From the IMG/VR virus record IMGVR_UViG_3300042305_001455, positions 1 through 33,104 of that record: DNA of 33,104 nucleotides. One strand, given 5' to 3'. Shown piece after piece: positions 3,215 to 29,756 of this stretch. The notes below the pieces were generated by a model that saw only the letters and a program-made list of their open reading frames with translations, did no database searches and was not told the origin of the DNA. The translations under genes were made by a program, and so were the position numbers. This stretch comes from a virus. Numbering within the stretch: the stretch's first letter is position 1; each line of letters opens with the position of its first letter.

Positions 3215-4159
3215 ATGGGCATTGCGATCCGGAAGGCGAGACGGTCCGGGACAAAGCTGCGGATCCTGTTGACGAGCCCGAGCGGGGGCGGAAAGACCTA
3301 CGGGTCCCTGCTTCTGGCGAAGGGGCTGGGTGGGCGTACGGTCGTGATCGACACCGAGCATGGCTCGTCCGACCTGTACGACGATCTGCACGAGTTCGAC
3401 GTAATAGACCTCAAGCCGCCGTTCACACCAGAGCGTTACGTCGAGGCGATTGCCGACGCCGAGGCGGCAGGGTATCAGGTGATCGTGATCGACTCGGTCA
3501 CTCACTGCTGGTCTGGCAAGGGCGGGTGTCTGGAACTGGTCGACGACATCGCGAAGGCCCAGTTCCGCGGGAACACATGGTCGGCCTTCTCGGTGATCAC
3601 GCCGCGATGGCGGGCGTTCGTCGACGCGATCCTTCGGTCTTCTGCCCACATAATCTGCACCGGCCGCTCGAAGACCGAGACCGCCCAGGTCGAGGACCAC
3701 GGGAAGAAGAAGGTCGCGAAGTTGGGCATGAAGCTGGAGGCCCGCGACGGCCTCGAGTACGAGTTTACGACCGTGCTCGACCTGGTCCATGAGGGGAACT
3801 ACGCCACCGTCTCGAAGGACCGGACCGGGATCTTCTCTGGAGACCCGAAGCCGATCACTGTCGAGACCGGGAAGCGGCTGGCTGAGTGGCTGGCGAAGGC
3901 CGAGCCCTCCCCGGCGACCAAGCCCGAGCGTGTCCAGCCGCCGGCGGCCGCCCCGAACGACGGCGAGCCGCCGCTGTTCGAGCTGGTGTCTGGGCACATC
4001 GCGGCCTGCCGTGACGTGCGGGCCCTGGGCCGCATGGGCGACCGGGTGGACGTGCTCGCGAGCGAGGGGCAGCTCACGGCCGACGAGGCCACCCGCCTGG
4101 AGCACATGATCAAGGCCCGCCACGACGAGATCGAGCCGGCCGTGGGGGCCACGACATGA
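3215..4159 (+). CDS. Sak4-like RecA-fold recombinase ATPase (AAA_24)
   Basis: Phage nucleotide-binding protein of 314 residues. Walker A is SPSGGGKT at residues 21-28 and Walker B is VIVID at 89-93. The spacing and the sensor-like ICTGRSK segment fit the AAA_24/Sak4 family, single-strand annealing recombinases of RecA fold. A linker after about residue 225 leads to a helical C-terminal domain (LFELVSGHIAACRDVRALG... to the end). GGAGG precedes the ATG by eight bases. An SSB-like gene follows three genes later; Sak4 proteins are known to work with a partner SSB, so the two probably act together in recombination-dependent replication or repair. Start and frame are secure; biochemical activity is inferred. 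Confidence 0.85.
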   Translation: MGIAIRKARRSGTKLRILLTSPSGGGKTYGSLLLAKGLGGRTVVIDTEHGSSDLYDDLHEFDVIDLKPPFTPERYVEAIADAEAAGYQVIVIDSVTHCWSGKGGCLELVDDIAKAQFRGNTWSAFSVITPRWRAFVDAILRSSAHIICTGRSKTETAQVEDHGKKKVAKLGMKLEARDGLEYEFTTVLDLVHEGNYATVSKDRTGIFSGDPKPITVETGKRLAEWLAKAEPSPATKPERVQPPAAAPNDGEPPLFELVSGHIAACRDVRALGRMGDRVDVLASEGQLTADEATRLEHMIKARHDEIEPAVGATT

Positions 4160-4410
4160 TCCTTCACAAGATCGAGGTGGGGAACGTGGTGACGCCGGAG
4201 GGCGTGTTCATCCGCAAGCGGCAGGCCGACGCGGTGGACGTGGCCGGCGTGATCTACGCGGACGAGTTCAACGGGCGATACCTGGAGCTCGCCACGGGCT
4301 GGCGTGAGTCGCGGCGGGACGCGTTGCTCGCCGCGGCCGACCTGCTGATCGAGCGGGCGACCGCGCTCCTCGAGCAGGCGGACAAGCTCGCCCGGGAGGC
4401 CAACTCGTGA
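4156..4410 (+). CDS. Hypothetical protein between Sak4-like and SSB-like genes
   Basis: 84 residues, ATGA overlap with the Sak4-like gene and GTGA overlap with the next. The N-terminal half is likely beta (ILHKIEVGNVVTPEGVFI), the C-terminal half a long helix (RRDALLAAADLLIERATALL and on to EQADKLAREA) that may form a coiled coil. No known family is recognised. The tight coupling implies a role in the recombination module. Confidence 0.6.
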   Translation: MILHKIEVGNVVTPEGVFIRKRQADAVDVAGVIYADEFNGRYLELATGWRESRRDALLAAADLLIERATALLEQADKLAREANS

Positions 4411-5701: not shown

Positions 5702-6559
5702 ATGGCTACGGCTCAATTCGAGACAGCGGAATATGTTTCCCTGCCAGCGGGCAAGGGCAAGGTTTCAAAGGTGACTCGCTATGGATGGATTCTCCGCGAC
5801 CGGCCCGGCGAGTTCATGTTGATTGACAAGCACGAACTGAAGGTGGACCACGCGTATCAGAGAGATAAGGTGCTGGTCAACAAGATACGCGACATTCAAG
5901 CAAACTGGTCTTGGGCCGGCTGCGGTTGCATTCTTGTTGCGATGAGACCCGACGGTTCGTTCTGGGTCTTTGACGGTCAGCACCGGGTTCTTGCCGCACG
6001 GAACCGCGCTGATATCGGCGAGCTGCCATGCTTGGTGTTTGAGTGTGACGACGTGACGCAAGAGGCGGCAGGCTTTCTTGTTTGCAACGGCGAGAGGAAG
6101 CCCGTCACCGCAGCGGCAAAGTTCAAGGCTCTTGTGTTGACTGGTGACAAGGCGGCAGTTGCTGTTCAAGAGATTTTTGATCGGCTCGACGTGTCGCTCG
6201 TTGAGCAGCCCTCACGCGCAGGGGAAATCAAGTGCATCGCGAAGTGCCTTTATCTCGCCGAATTAGACCAAGGACTGTTTGCGAGGTCTCTCGAGGCAGC
6301 CATTGAATTGTGCGGCGAATCACCAGTTACCAAGGACATTCTTGAAGGCCTGTCTTGGATTCAGCGGAAGCATGGCCTGCTTTCTGATCATCGGTTCATG
6401 AAGCGGCTCCGCTCTGTCTCTGTTGCTGAAATCATGACAAGCATCGCGAAGTTTGCCGCCGCTGAAGGCAAGCGCGGGGAGCGCGTTTGCGGGACTGCCA
6501 TCCTCAAGCTCGTCAACAAGGGGCTTAGGCACAAGTTCGTTGACGAAGGCGATGAGTAG
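5702..6559 (+). CDS. ParB N-terminal-domain-like protein (DUF6551-like)
   Basis: 285 residues, ATG with AAAGGAG seven bases upstream. The key motif is FWVFDGQHRVLAARN at residues 87-101, the DGQHR/ParB-Srx fold signature. It is followed by CLVFE and by NGERKPVTAAAKFKAL, as in phage and plasmid ParB-like proteins of the DUF6551 type. The remainder is helical. Members can be nucleases, CTPases or regulators, and the sequence does not decide which. Base use is unlike its neighbours: two sampled 60-base lines (5821, 6121) hold 30 and 28 G+C, against clearly higher values on both sides, and codons with A/T third bases are common. This suggests recent acquisition. Confidence 0.75.
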   Translation: MATAQFETAEYVSLPAGKGKVSKVTRYGWILRDRPGEFMLIDKHELKVDHAYQRDKVLVNKIRDIQANWSWAGCGCILVAMRPDGSFWVFDGQHRVLAARNRADIGELPCLVFECDDVTQEAAGFLVCNGERKPVTAAAKFKALVLTGDKAAVAVQEIFDRLDVSLVEQPSRAGEIKCIAKCLYLAELDQGLFARSLEAAIELCGESPVTKDILEGLSWIQRKHGLLSDHRFMKRLRSVSVAEIMTSIAKFAAAEGKRGERVCGTAILKLVNKGLRHKFVDEGDE

Positions 6560-7936: not shown

Positions 7937-8566
7937 ATGCCACTCAAGGACGGATCGGCCTCCAGGGGCGAAATGCGGAGGCGTCACGAGGAGATCATCA
8001 GGAGCGGCGTCCTGCGCAGGGTGCGGTCAGAGGGGCGGCTGGTGTTCGCCCTGGCCCTCTGCTGGGCCGACTACAAGACCTGCCAATTCCGGATGTCTGT
8101 ACGCGGTGCGGCAACGACGGCCGGCGTGGAGCCTACAACTGTCCGCCGTGGCCTATCACAACTCCTTGATCTCGGGGTGATCGAGGCCGGCCCGACAGAA
8201 CCCGGCAAGCGGCAGAGGTACAGGTTCCGCACCCCCCAAAAGAGCGCGCACGAGCCGTGCCCGGGGGGGGCACGAGTGGTGCCCGGGGGCGCGCACGAGC
8301 CGTGCCCGGGGGCGCGCACCAGTGGTGCGCAGAGCGCGCACGAGCCGTGCGCGGGGCGCGCACACCCCGTGTCCGGCGCGCGCACAGGCTGTGCCCCCTA
8401 TTCCTCAATTGTCCTCAAGGGTTCCTCAAGAACCCGTGAGGACACAAGTGTCCTCACCGGCCGTACCGGGCCTGACGGCCCGGCCGGCCGAATGGCTGAA
8501 AGCGACCCAGTCAACTCTGATGCAGCAAGCATGGCGGCGAAGCTGCGGGCGGAGGCGGGGGCGTGA
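7937..8566 (+). CDS. Winged-helix replication initiator-like protein containing the origin
   Basis: 209 residues from the ATG at 7937. Residues about 30-98 form a winged-helix domain (GRLVFALALCWADYKTCQF, VRGAATTAGVEPTTVRRGLS, QLLDLGVIEAG, KRQRYRF), like phage replication initiators. Residues 104-153 are a low-complexity linker rich in AHEPCPG-type words, produced by seven DNA iterons. Their 22-23 base period drifts through reading frames, so selection is on the DNA, not the peptide. The short C-terminal tail is polar. It lies directly after the DnaB-like gene, parallel to the lambda O gene, where initiator binding sites lie inside the initiator gene. Initiator function is inferred from fold, iterons and context. 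Confidence 0.72.
   Translation: MPLKDGSASRGEMRRRHEEIIRSGVLRRVRSEGRLVFALALCWADYKTCQFRMSVRGAATTAGVEPTTVRRGLSQLLDLGVIEAGPTEPGKRQRYRFRTPQKSAHEPCPGGARVVPGGAHEPCPGARTSGAQSAHEPCAGRAHPVSGARTGCAPYSSIVLKGSSRTREDTSVLTGRTGPDGPAGRMAESDPVNSDAASMAAKLRAEAGA
8248..8394. repeat. Seven dyad iterons, probable replication origin
   Basis: Seven 13-bp units of form GCAC-N5-GTGC start at 8248, 8270, 8293, 8316, 8338, 8360 and 8382, at spacings 22, 23, 23, 22, 22 and 22 bases, about two helical turns. Units 1, 3 and 5 are identical (GCACGAGCCGTGC). Units 4 (GCACCAGTGGTGC) and 7 (GCACAGGCTGTGC) are perfect palindromes. Unit 6 has one change (GTGT). All sit on one DNA face within a winged-helix gene and next to the helicase gene. 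An A/T-richer tract with short repeats follows at 8397-8430. This is the layout of an iteron origin of lambda-O type. Confidence 0.8.
8401..8483. other. A/T-richer tract and three hairpins beside the iterons
   Basis: Three CCTCAA words lie at 8403, 8413 and 8424, about one helical turn apart. Then come three successive perfect inverted repeats: GGGTT/AACCC (8419-8435), GTGAGGACA/TGTCCTCAC with a four-base loop (8436-8457), and CCGGGCC/GGCCCGG with a four-base loop (8466-8483). Next to the iterons this could be the unwinding and loading part of the origin. The hairpins could also be primer or termination signals. Confidence 0.5.
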
Positions 8567-9017: not shown

Positions 9018-9098
9018 GAACGCCAGCGATCAGCGGCCCGCGAAAGGCGGCGAAGCCGGCTGGATTCGCCCGCCAGGCCCGATACCGTGGCCGGTCGC

Positions 9099-9539
9099 AT
9101 GGATGCGATCACGTTCACGGTCCCCGGGCCGCCGGTTCCGCAACCACGCCCCAAGATCTCCACATGGGGCGGCCGCGGCCGCGCCTACGTCGAGGCCCGC
9201 CACCCGATCCACGCGTACCGCCAGGCGGTGGAACTGGCCGCCACGATCGCCGCCCGGGCCGGCTGGACCTACACCGACGACGCGGTGGTCCTCGAGGTCG
9301 AGGCGATCTTCCCACGGCCGCCGTCACACCTGACGAAGACCGGCGAGCCCCGGGCGGGGGCGCCGGCGTGGCCGCCGCGGTGCGATTGGGACAACCTCGG
9401 GAAGGGCGTGTCGGACGCGATCAAGAAGTGCGGCAAGGTCTTCCACGACGACGACCAGGTCGTGGACGGCCGGGTCCGGAAACGGTACGCCCAGCTCGGG
9501 GAGCCGGCCCGGACCGTGGTCCACATCCGGAGGGTGTGA
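9099..9539 (+). CDS. rusA: RusA-family Holliday junction resolvase
   Basis: 146 residues from the ATG at 9099; a GTG at 9087 would add four, and neither has a clear ribosome binding site. RusA dimers cut four-way DNA junctions during recombination and before packaging. Visible family features are the opening FTVPGPPVPQPRPK, the acidic core DWDNLGKGVSDAI (Asp96, Asp98, Asp106) and FHDDDQVVD (Asp117-119). Length fits the family. Together with the Sak4-like and SSB-like genes it completes a recombination module. A second frame from GTG 9014 through this region lacks any motif and is judged a shadow. Confidence 0.9.
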   Translation: MDAITFTVPGPPVPQPRPKISTWGGRGRAYVEARHPIHAYRQAVELAATIAARAGWTYTDDAVVLEVEAIFPRPPSHLTKTGEPRAGAPAWPPRCDWDNLGKGVSDAIKKCGKVFHDDDQVVDGRVRKRYAQLGEPARTVVHIRRV

Positions 9540-9540
9540 C

Positions 9541-9891
9541 GTGCCCGCGAAGCCGCCGCCGCCTCGACACTGGCTTACGCGCCGCCAGGAGATGATCGTC
9601 CGCCGGCTGATCGCGGCCGGCGCCACCCAGGCGGAGGCCGCCCGGGCCGCCGGCGTGAGCTACTCGCGGCTCCGGACGCGGATGTCGGACCAGCTCCGCG
9701 ACCTGCGGGTCGGCCGGGGGCAGCGGACACGGGGCGGACGATTCGAGGAGATCCCGGAGGACGAGATCGCCGCCCGGGCCCGGGCCCTCCGCGAGACGTG
9801 GACGCCCGACAGGGCCGTTGAGGCCTGGAACCCGGCCTGGCGGCCGGCTGGGGCGAACTTCGCCGCCCGCGACGACGAGGGGACACTGTGA
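9541..9891 (+). CDS. Helix-turn-helix protein
   Basis: 116 residues from GTG at 9541, GGAGG (9529-9533) seven bases upstream. Residues about 12-60 hold a helix-turn-helix (RRQEMIVRRLIAAGATQAEA, ARAAGVSYSRLRTRM), like sigma-region-4 or LuxR-type HTH domains. The rest is charged and has EIPEDEIAARARALRETW. It stands at the change from replication to virion genes, a fitting place for a late-gene activator, which is inference. Near its end is a GGCGAA-C-TTCGCC palindrome (9852-9864). Confidence 0.65.
   Translation: MPAKPPPPRHWLTRRQEMIVRRLIAAGATQAEAARAAGVSYSRLRTRMSDQLRDLRVGRGQRTRGGRFEEIPEDEIAARARALRETWTPDRAVEAWNPAWRPAGANFAARDDEGTL
9852..9864. other. 13-bp GGCGAA-N-TTCGCC palindrome
   Basis: A perfect palindrome with one central base, inside the end of the HTH gene and 32 bases before the next start. 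The same core, GCGAA-N-TTCGC, occurs at 14092-14104 before the portal gene and at 19442-19452 before the capsid gene. It could be a shared regulatory site, although this copy is also coding (NFAA-like codons). Confidence 0.3.
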
Positions 9892-27185: not shown

Positions 27186-29756
27186 GTGGACATCCTGGCG
27201 GCCATCGCATCCGACCCGTCGGTCCTGCCGCTGTGGCTGGTGCTCGCGTTCGCCGCCGGCATGTACCCGGTCGGGATGCTGTTCGGGTGTCAGGTGTGCT
27301 GCAACTACTGCCTCCAGTGTTGCCCGGACCGCCCCGAGCAGGTGGTGATCGACTTCCACCTCGAGGAGGCGGGCGAGCAGGTGGTCAAGGCGACGCCGTG
27401 GCGGATGTTCGACCAGAGTTTCGGATTTAGGTATCACCGATTCGACCCGCTCGACGAGATAGCAGACACTGCAAACCACGACCCCTACGGCGAATACACG
27501 CCGGAGAACGTGTACGGCTACATGCCCACGTTCATCGCGACCGGCGATACGTCCGGCGCTCGCCGGATGTTGGTCTCTCAAATCTATTTCCTGGCCAACG
27601 ATACGCCGCCTGGATACGGCGAAAATAGATATCGGCCGGTGATCAACACGGTCGGCAGCCGATCTATGGGACCTGTGTTCACGACGAACACGCGATACGA
27701 GTTTCTGGAAGAATCAGTCAGCGTTTCGTCGGTCCCGCCGGCGACAGCGATCAGCGGCCCGGACCTGTCGTTTCAACTGACTCCGGGCTCGGGCGGATGT
27801 ACCGGCTCGTTCGCTGGCGACCGCGGCAGCTACTCGACGGAGATCACGCCCGAGGCTGACTACAAGGTGTTATGCCAGGGCGACGAGGGCACCGTCATAT
27901 ACGACATCACGGACGGGCGGCCTGACGGATGCAATAAGACGTGCGTCCCCGGACTGGTACGGACGATGAACCATCCGGCGAACTGCAAGCTCGCCCTAGC
28001 AGGAGATGGCGGCCTGTCCCCAACGGGTCAAGCCGAAGGTTCCGTCGCCGAGGTAAGCCAGCTCACGATCGCGGTGAACGTCCTTCGGCAGCGGCAGGAG
28101 TTCGTGCTCGGCGACCTGCCCTACACGCCGCCGATCATCAATACCTGCTCGGACAACCTGACGGCGACGGCGACGACCTACTGGACATCCGCCCTGCCCG
28201 GGGCGGGTCGCATCTTTCCGGACGGCACCGGCGAAGCGACGCAGGCATGGTGCCAGACGGTCCGCACCTACACCCTCGACACGACCGAGCAGGACTGCGC
28301 CCCGTTCGAGGATTGGCCGTACACGGACGTGACCACGGACAGCGACGGCGAGTACGAGGACGAGCTGGTCCGCCTTACGATCTCGAGCTGCTTCGGGTCG
28401 GGCTTCGCCGGCCGGGCCACCGAGCCAGCCGGGATCCCGGGCGAGGACGATGGGCCGATCACCGCCCTCGACATCCAGAACGCCGGCACGGGATACGCCG
28501 TGCCCGGCCGCGTCGAGCCGACGATCAACGTCTCGAGCAACGCCGGCACCGGGGCCGATCTGCTGGTCACGATGACCGAAGGCGAGGACGAGTGCGGCCG
28601 GCCGGTGTGGTCGATCGACTCGATCCAGATCGCGTCGGGGTCCGGCGACGACGGCGGCCAGGACTACATCGACGGCGAGAACCTGTCGATCACAGTCGAG
28701 GCCCCCGGCGTGGAGGTGACGCCGGCCGCCGGAACCGCCGTTGTCGGCCGCGAGGAGCCGGAGCTCGACATCTACTCCTACAACACGGGCAGCAACGCGG
28801 AGATCACGTTCACCTACACGGAGAACGCCGGGCCGCCGAAGACGTGGACGCCGGACTCCGCCACCGTGGACTCCGTGGGCAGCGGCTACGCCTACGGAGA
28901 GTATGTGGACCTGGTGCCGAAGACCTCGGCCGACCAGTCGGCCAACGAATACTACCTGGGCTACGCGCAGATCGAGACGCTCGTGTCCGAGCCGACCGTG
29001 AGCCTGTCGGGCGGGTCCGGCACCGGTGCCGATCTGCCGGTGACGCTGACGAGCAACGGCGGCGCCCCCGAGACCTGGGGAATCTCTGCCGTGACGATCC
29101 TCGACGGCGGGTCGGGATACGTCGAGGGCGACATCCTGACGATCGATCGCGGCGAGGACGACGTGGAACAGTCGGCCGCCACTGTGACCGTATCAGGCGT
29201 GGACGGCAGCGGGGCCATTACCGGCGTTACCATCGACGCTGCCGGTGAGTATTACTACGAGTCGGGCCACGTCTCGGCCGTGAACATCATCGACGGCGGA
29301 CAATACTACCGCTCGACCGGGATCCTGGAGAGCGTCGAGATCACGGACGGCGGGTCGTTCTATCTGGAGGACGAAGACGCGCCGGCGATCGTGGCCGACA
29401 TCACGGTGGAGGTCGAGCAGTTGTCGCCGTCGTCCGGGTCGGGCCTCCAGGTCTCGGCGGTCGTGGACGACGATGTCCACTCGGCGACGTTCGGCCAGAT
29501 CACCGGGCTCACGATCGACGACGGCGGGTCGGACTACCTGGCCATCCAAGATGAGCCGAGCGTGTGCCACGTCGGGGCGCCGTATCGGCGGGCCTACACG
29601 ACGAAAATCACAGCATTATTTCCAAGTTCAACAACCATGTACGAGTGCGACAATTTTTCTGGAGACCCACTGACATCTCGCCGCCGCGGCTTCCTCTTCC
29701 GCCGCCGCTGCCCCGACTACACCTACCAGATCAGCCTCCAGTCGGGGTCCTCCTGA
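27186..29756 (+). CDS. Large tail tip or fibre protein with Cys-rich membrane-like start and GGxGY repeats
   Basis: 856 residues from GTG 27186. Residues 13-34 are hydrophobic (LPLWLVLAFAAGMYPVGMLF), directly followed by a Cys cluster (six Cys between 35 and 46). A globular part reaches about residue 410. The rest contains about eight units of the type ITxVTIxDGGSGYxxGD, for example SAVTILDGGSGYVEGDIL, SVEITDGGSFYLEDED, TGLTIDDGGSDYL; such units form beta-rich fibres or baseplate stalks. It is the largest gene and lies at the tail tip position. Many other cysteines are scattered along it. Host contact is likely; the N-terminal helix-Cys part is unexplained. Confidence 0.7.
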   Translation: MDILAAIASDPSVLPLWLVLAFAAGMYPVGMLFGCQVCCNYCLQCCPDRPEQVVIDFHLEEAGEQVVKATPWRMFDQSFGFRYHRFDPLDEIADTANHDPYGEYTPENVYGYMPTFIATGDTSGARRMLVSQIYFLANDTPPGYGENRYRPVINTVGSRSMGPVFTTNTRYEFLEESVSVSSVPPATAISGPDLSFQLTPGSGGCTGSFAGDRGSYSTEITPEADYKVLCQGDEGTVIYDITDGRPDGCNKTCVPGLVRTMNHPANCKLALAGDGGLSPTGQAEGSVAEVSQLTIAVNVLRQRQEFVLGDLPYTPPIINTCSDNLTATATTYWTSALPGAGRIFPDGTGEATQAWCQTVRTYTLDTTEQDCAPFEDWPYTDVTTDSDGEYEDELVRLTISSCFGSGFAGRATEPAGIPGEDDGPITALDIQNAGTGYAVPGRVEPTINVSSNAGTGADLLVTMTEGEDECGRPVWSIDSIQIASGSGDDGGQDYIDGENLSITVEAPGVEVTPAAGTAVVGREEPELDIYSYNTGSNAEITFTYTENAGPPKTWTPDSATVDSVGSGYAYGEYVDLVPKTSADQSANEYYLGYAQIETLVSEPTVSLSGGSGTGADLPVTLTSNGGAPETWGISAVTILDGGSGYVEGDILTIDRGEDDVEQSAATVTVSGVDGSGAITGVTIDAAGEYYYESGHVSAVNIIDGGQYYRSTGILESVEITDGGSFYLEDEDAPAIVADITVEVEQLSPSSGSGLQVSAVVDDDVHSATFGQITGLTIDDGGSDYLAIQDEPSVCHVGAPYRRAYTTKITALFPSSTTMYECDNFSGDPLTSRRRGFLFRRRCPDYTYQISLQSGSS

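Follow-up and report, generated by a model that had tools for sequence, protein, structure and literature searches.

A putative replication origin of phased dyads inside the winged-helix initiator gene of an unnamed phage family

In phage lambda, phased imperfect dyads lie within the O gene at steps of 20, 24 and 23 bp, followed by an AT-rich tract and then by a 12-bp inverted repeat. Lambda-type O proteins are dimers, one of which binds at each dyad, and a single iteron spans 19 bp as an imperfect inverted repeat adjoining the AT-rich tract (PMC7466680). Gene 18 of phage P22 holds four in-gene repeats, also with steps of 20, 24 and 23, and has downstream of it gene 12, which encodes a DnaB-type helicase. 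Phage L carries six in-gene 11-bp repeats and a gp12 like that of P22 (PMC8022706). In Streptococcus phages of the Javan26 type, a DnaB-like helicase gene lies upstream of the replication initiation gene, with a hypothetical gene between them and a DnaI-type loader gene after. Here we describe a module found in a viral sequence from IMG/VR, 33,104 bases long and of the linear class, which was analysed as a whole and is called the window. The family to which it belongs would add a third arrangement to those known for origins that lie within initiator genes.

The organisation of lambda is found in the window family in its three parts: dyads within the gene, an easily melted tract directly after them and an inverted repeat after the tract. 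A resemblance to the lambda O/ori plan had been proposed in the original prediction for this DNA, and it fits better than was seen then, because beyond the array come an unstable tract and an inverted repeat. There are nevertheless several differences. Lambda has four dyads, whereas there are usually seven here, of a different motif and with a stricter spacing of 22 bp; the phased short repeats of the unwinding tract are a feature of the window family; the window initiator lacks the long C-terminal domain; and a helicase gene stands upstream in place of the loader P downstream. Homology of the window protein to lambda O or to P22 gp18 was not significant (hhalign probabilities of 0.5% and 1.7%, respectively). 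As in P22, a phage-coded DnaB-type helicase is adjacent to the initiator, but the order initiator (18) then helicase (12) is reversed, with the helicase first in all 33 loci tested, and P22 and L have another motif and fewer repeats. Since these two phages already pair in-gene iterons with a phage DnaB-type helicase, to call the module an undescribed replicon type, as had been done, is too strong; the module is better described as a new and as yet unnamed family within a known plan. Among named phages, the helicase of the Javan26 type matches that of the window best, with about 27% identity.

We consider it highly probable (roughly 0.88), judging from the sequence and its relatives, that the region of about 8246-8444 is a phage replication origin lying inside its own initiator gene; the encoded initiator would bind it and recruit the phage helicase. 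This reading is based on the adjoining helicase gene and on the succession of phased dyads, unstable tract and inverted repeat, in that order. It is strongly supported by conservation and appears by far the best explanation of the locus. The element had been placed at 8248-8394, where the dyads indeed are; it is longer, reaching about 8444, and the block downstream of the array had been missed (Table 1).

Table 1. Coordinates of the module in the window
Feature	Position	Strand	Remarks
DnaB-like replicative helicase gene, 433 aa	6634..7935	+	Pfam DnaB_C 6e-21; phrog_19 DnaB-like 1e-31
Putative replication initiator gene, 209 aa	7937..8566	+	winged helix aa 10-100; putative origin-encoded disordered tail
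Dyad 1, GNNCAC-N5-GTGNNC	8246..8262	none	13-mer 8248-8260
Dyad 2, GNNCAC-N5-GTGNNC	8268..8284	none	13-mer 8270-8282
Dyad 3, GNNCAC-N5-GTGNNC	8291..8307	none	13-mer 8293-8305
Dyad 4, GNNCAC-N5-GTGNNC	8314..8330	none	13-mer 8316-8328
Dyad 5, GNNCAC-N5-GTGNNC	8336..8352	none	13-mer 8338-8350
Dyad 6	8358..8374	none	13-mer 8360-8372, last base T
Dyad 7	8380..8396	none	13-mer start 8382; centre 9 bp from the downstream block, a distance fixed in nearly all relatives
Putative duplex-unwinding element	8398..8437	none	least stable 40-mer of the putative origin; least stable 0.4% of the window
CCTCAA direct repeats, three copies	8403..8429	+	starts 8403, 8413, 8424; steps 10, 11 bp
Inverted repeat, potential hairpin	8410..8444	none	arms 8410-8424 and 8430-8444; one mismatch; loop CTCAA

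The array has a GC content of about 80% and consists of dyads at steps of 22, 23, 23, 22, 22 and 22 bp. The array and the 22-23 bp spacing stand as first described, with the correction that the 13-bp dyad GCAC-N5-GTGC occurs in six exact copies (dyads 1 to 5 and 7); in the remaining one, the sixth in order, the 13-mer ends in GTGT and the core CAC-N5-GTG is intact. The dyads had also been taken to fall all on one face of the DNA. By arithmetic at 10.5 bp per turn this holds roughly for neighbours, which are 2.1-2.2 turns apart, while a drift of about three quarters of a turn accumulates over the array. The longest phased chain of CAC-N5-GTG units comprises seven in the window and at most two after dinucleotide shuffling of the whole window (500 shuffles) or of the gene alone (2000), and no second dyad array was found anywhere in the 33,104 bases. 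When codons were resampled synonymously with the protein kept (5000 trials), a mean of 1.6 of the seven sites survived and all seven never did. Going along the array, the codon position taken by the first C of CAC is 1, 2, 1, 3, 1, 2 and 3, which bears out that the dyads rotate through the reading frames.

Relatives were collected by two routes. For the protein route, an alignment as well as the single initiator and helicase sequences served as queries against viral contigs. The loci so obtained have 34-82% identity to the initiator and nearly all carry five to seven dyads at steps of 22-24 bp (six in L049, at 34% identity), with a fixed distance from the last dyad to the downstream block. Orthologues that keep the peptide and lose the dyad spacing were looked for, as this was the outcome named against the original prediction, which came through the comparison: all orthologues recruited by protein, down to about 32% identity, keep dyads, usually seven. 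In locus L012 two dyads and the downstream block remain; its stretch 3995-4381 is a near twin of L008 minus five dyads (110 bp, with a frameshift), and may reflect either a real deletion or a collapse in assembly. For the second route, IMG/VR was scanned for four phased CAC-N5-GTG units with genes ignored. This DNA-only scan returned 27 stretches, 19 of them on contigs new to the set, and in every one of the 19 the array lies at the same place and in the same orientation within a winged-helix ORF, nearly always as seven dyads with steps of 22, 23, 22, 22, 22 and 22. A protein search started from this DNA-found group, the second clade, gave 20 loci, 18 already present in the DNA scan; the two extras are L088, with seven dyads, and L089, with seven dyad positions of which some have degenerate cores. 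In L089 (3815-3963) these include GCCTAC-N5-GTG and GTA for GTG, and the recognition-helix motif reads AQRG instead of VRRG; a co-evolution of site and protein is possible from these letters. The longer relatives have a single array place per record. As many contigs are close relatives, we judge the independent lineages to number nearer 20 than 35.

The location that had been described, within a winged-helix gene that immediately follows one for a DnaB-like helicase, holds in all 33 loci tested, with helicases of 37-97% identity to that of the window. This constancy bears on two other explanations that invoke neighbouring genes. The array could be a centromere-like partition site for the ParB-like (DUF6551) protein encoded at 5702-6559, just upstream of the helicase gene in the window. 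That gene was matched in three of the 33 loci, the array being in all, and a scan of eight nearby proteins gave no ParA. With the ParB-like gene absent from 30 loci we rejected this explanation as extremely improbable; the gene itself, being found in so few loci, is probably a mobile passenger. The array could also be a pac or cos signal for DNA packaging, given a weak terminase-small-subunit-like HTH gene at 9541-9891. A terminase-like gene is found in only seven of the 33 loci and at varying distance, while the helicase is always adjacent, and we give packaging hardly any credence. A RusA-like resolvase gene lies downstream at 9087-9539 in the window and RusA follows the module in 18 of the 33 loci, so it may belong to a wider replication-recombination block. 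Other genes observed 3' of the initiator encode a LexA-like HTH protein (L011, L029, L049 and L088) or a small secreted protein (L018, L021, L034 and L041).

The conserved unit is DNA and not peptide, as had been proposed, which is upheld by the dyad consensus, by invariant third codon positions and by the synonymous resampling. In the clade recruited by protein, third codon positions in the dyad core are invariant in eight of eight columns, compared with 15% in the winged-helix part. Since third positions within the dyads do not vary, selection appears to act on the DNA. In the second clade every core column is invariant, in a clade that was partly chosen by the pattern; for this reason the G and C at ±8, which lie outside the search pattern, are the fair test, and they are 83-100% invariant. 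Moreover, in L023 and L012 the downstream block keeps its DNA unaltered although its reading frame differs from that of the window. From these other frames and from the codon-position and resampling tests, we rejected the idea that the repeats arose through selection on the peptide.

In a set of 71 unique dyads, the letters that stay constant are CAC/GTG plus the G and C at ±8. The unit of conservation is therefore the 17-bp GNNCAC-N5-GTGNNC: the core of GCAC-N5-GTGC, which had been given as the conserved unit, is kept, and the outer G and C of that 13-mer vary in relatives. This consensus also allows us to weigh whether the seven dyads act as stem-loops, in RNA or in single-stranded DNA, and not as protein sites on duplex DNA. 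Single dyads could form short hairpins, and the inner pair at ±2 is complementary more often than expected by chance. On the other hand, positions ±6 and ±7 vary in the same 71 dyads without pairing above chance (p of 0.06 and 0.47), and the fixed letters at ±3, ±4, ±5 and ±8 are the pattern of a protein site. By eye the outer arms seem compensatory (GCGCAC/GTGCGC, GGTCAC/GTGACC, GGACAC/GTGTCC), but no covariation was found at ±6 and ±7, and dyad hairpins were rejected as very unlikely. From their constant and free letters, the dyads look like protein sites rather than hairpins.

Past the last dyad the GC content falls from about 80% to about 50%, so that the AT content of the putative unwinding tract reaches just about 50%, a point against the origin reading. 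In the block 8398-8437, invariance extends to 93% of third codon positions within the window clade, compared with 15% in the winged-helix part. The tract has three or four short repeats at steps of 10-11 bp, and pooled repeat matches at lags of 10, 11 and 21 number 71, 49 and 52 versus about 2-3 expected. In other lineages (the second clade) CAGT occupies the offsets of CCTCAA, often four times (offsets 4, 14, 25 and 35). The inverted repeat overlaps this unstable repeat tract, and in some relatives the initiator ORF stops within it. Its arms stay complementary while their letters differ between lineages, which denotes a coordinated change. Among 14 sequences (the second clade and L049), one arm column pair reads CG in six, TA in five and GC in three, and another reads TA in five and AT in nine, both without exception, in counts that are uncorrected for shared ancestry. 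Unlike the dyads, the inverted repeat may function as a hairpin.

The initiator ORF opens right past the helicase stop. An AlphaFold2 model of its product has residues 10-100 with pLDDT mostly above 90 and a tail mostly below 50; the disordered tail is the part encoded by the dyad array, as expected if the array-encoded peptide is a passenger. Residues R70, R71 and G72 in the recognition-helix region are nearly invariant among relatives, and the dyad core is invariant too. A search of solved structures by sequence gave chance-level HTH matches only. By fold, the nearest solved structures (Foldseek against the PDB) are regulators of the ArsR, MarR and CodY types, winged helices of the dimeric type; against a viral library, the matches are to many viral HTH proteins, with GpO-N and replication O proteins among them. 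The window initiator itself has no PHROG match at E 0.01, and several of its relatives have weak matches to O-like or replication-initiation PHROGs. These results raise the question of whether the dyads are operators, where a winged-helix regulator binds inside its own gene and blocks or tunes transcription. The regulators of nearest fold do bind dyads, and a few family members match a transcriptional regulator PHROG. Nevertheless, the best PHROG matches of the family are replication initiators, and seven sites some 300 bp into the gene, invariably with a replicative helicase gene ahead of them and an unstable repeat block plus inverted repeat behind, are unexpected for an operator. An operator array seems to us very unlikely, and autoregulation could be a secondary role of the dyads.

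For the in-gene origin, the following sequence of events can be proposed. The winged-helix protein would bind each GNNCAC-N5-GTGNNC dyad as a dimer, and seven phased dimers would assemble into a single nucleoprotein complex. This complex would strain and open the adjacent low-stability tract 8398-8437, where the repeats phased at 10-11 bp and the inverted repeat may help to open the strands or hold them single. The DnaB-like helicase, produced from the preceding, nearly abutting gene, would then be placed at the opened tract, and theta replication would begin. GC skew lends this reading no support: the minimum anticipated near 8.3 kb was absent in the window, where the cumulative skew is lowest at base 354 and highest at base 29592.

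No relatives of the initiator were found among 50,697 named phage records. The module is present on one MAG contig labelled as uncultured Planctomycetaceae and was absent from 391 other genomes of the planctomycete phylum; the phage family possibly has a planctomycete host, which we take as a lead only. To our knowledge, replication in the phages of such hosts has hardly been studied. The family is a widespread, unnamed phage group, probably of soil and water, for which the module provides a precise and testable candidate origin. In addition, the regularity and conservation of the array make it usable as a marker for origins and initiator genes in uncultivated phages.

More tentatively, a separate initiator lineage may have reached the lambda plan independently and evolved a bipartite origin, an idea that we hold as possible but doubtful. 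It would combine an unchanging array of about seven dyads with an unwinding tract of four short repeats, at helical steps, whose letters are swapped in concert (CCTCAA to CAGT, and others) with both hairpin arms. If true, recognition would include a second step that evolves fast, perhaps made by the helicase or by single-strand contacts, and this step would load the phage helicase with no loader involved. The concerted change of the phased repeats and both hairpin arms is the one feature of the family that deserves experiments. With the dyad array fixed and the tract repeats changing together, it can be tested directly what reads the melted strand.
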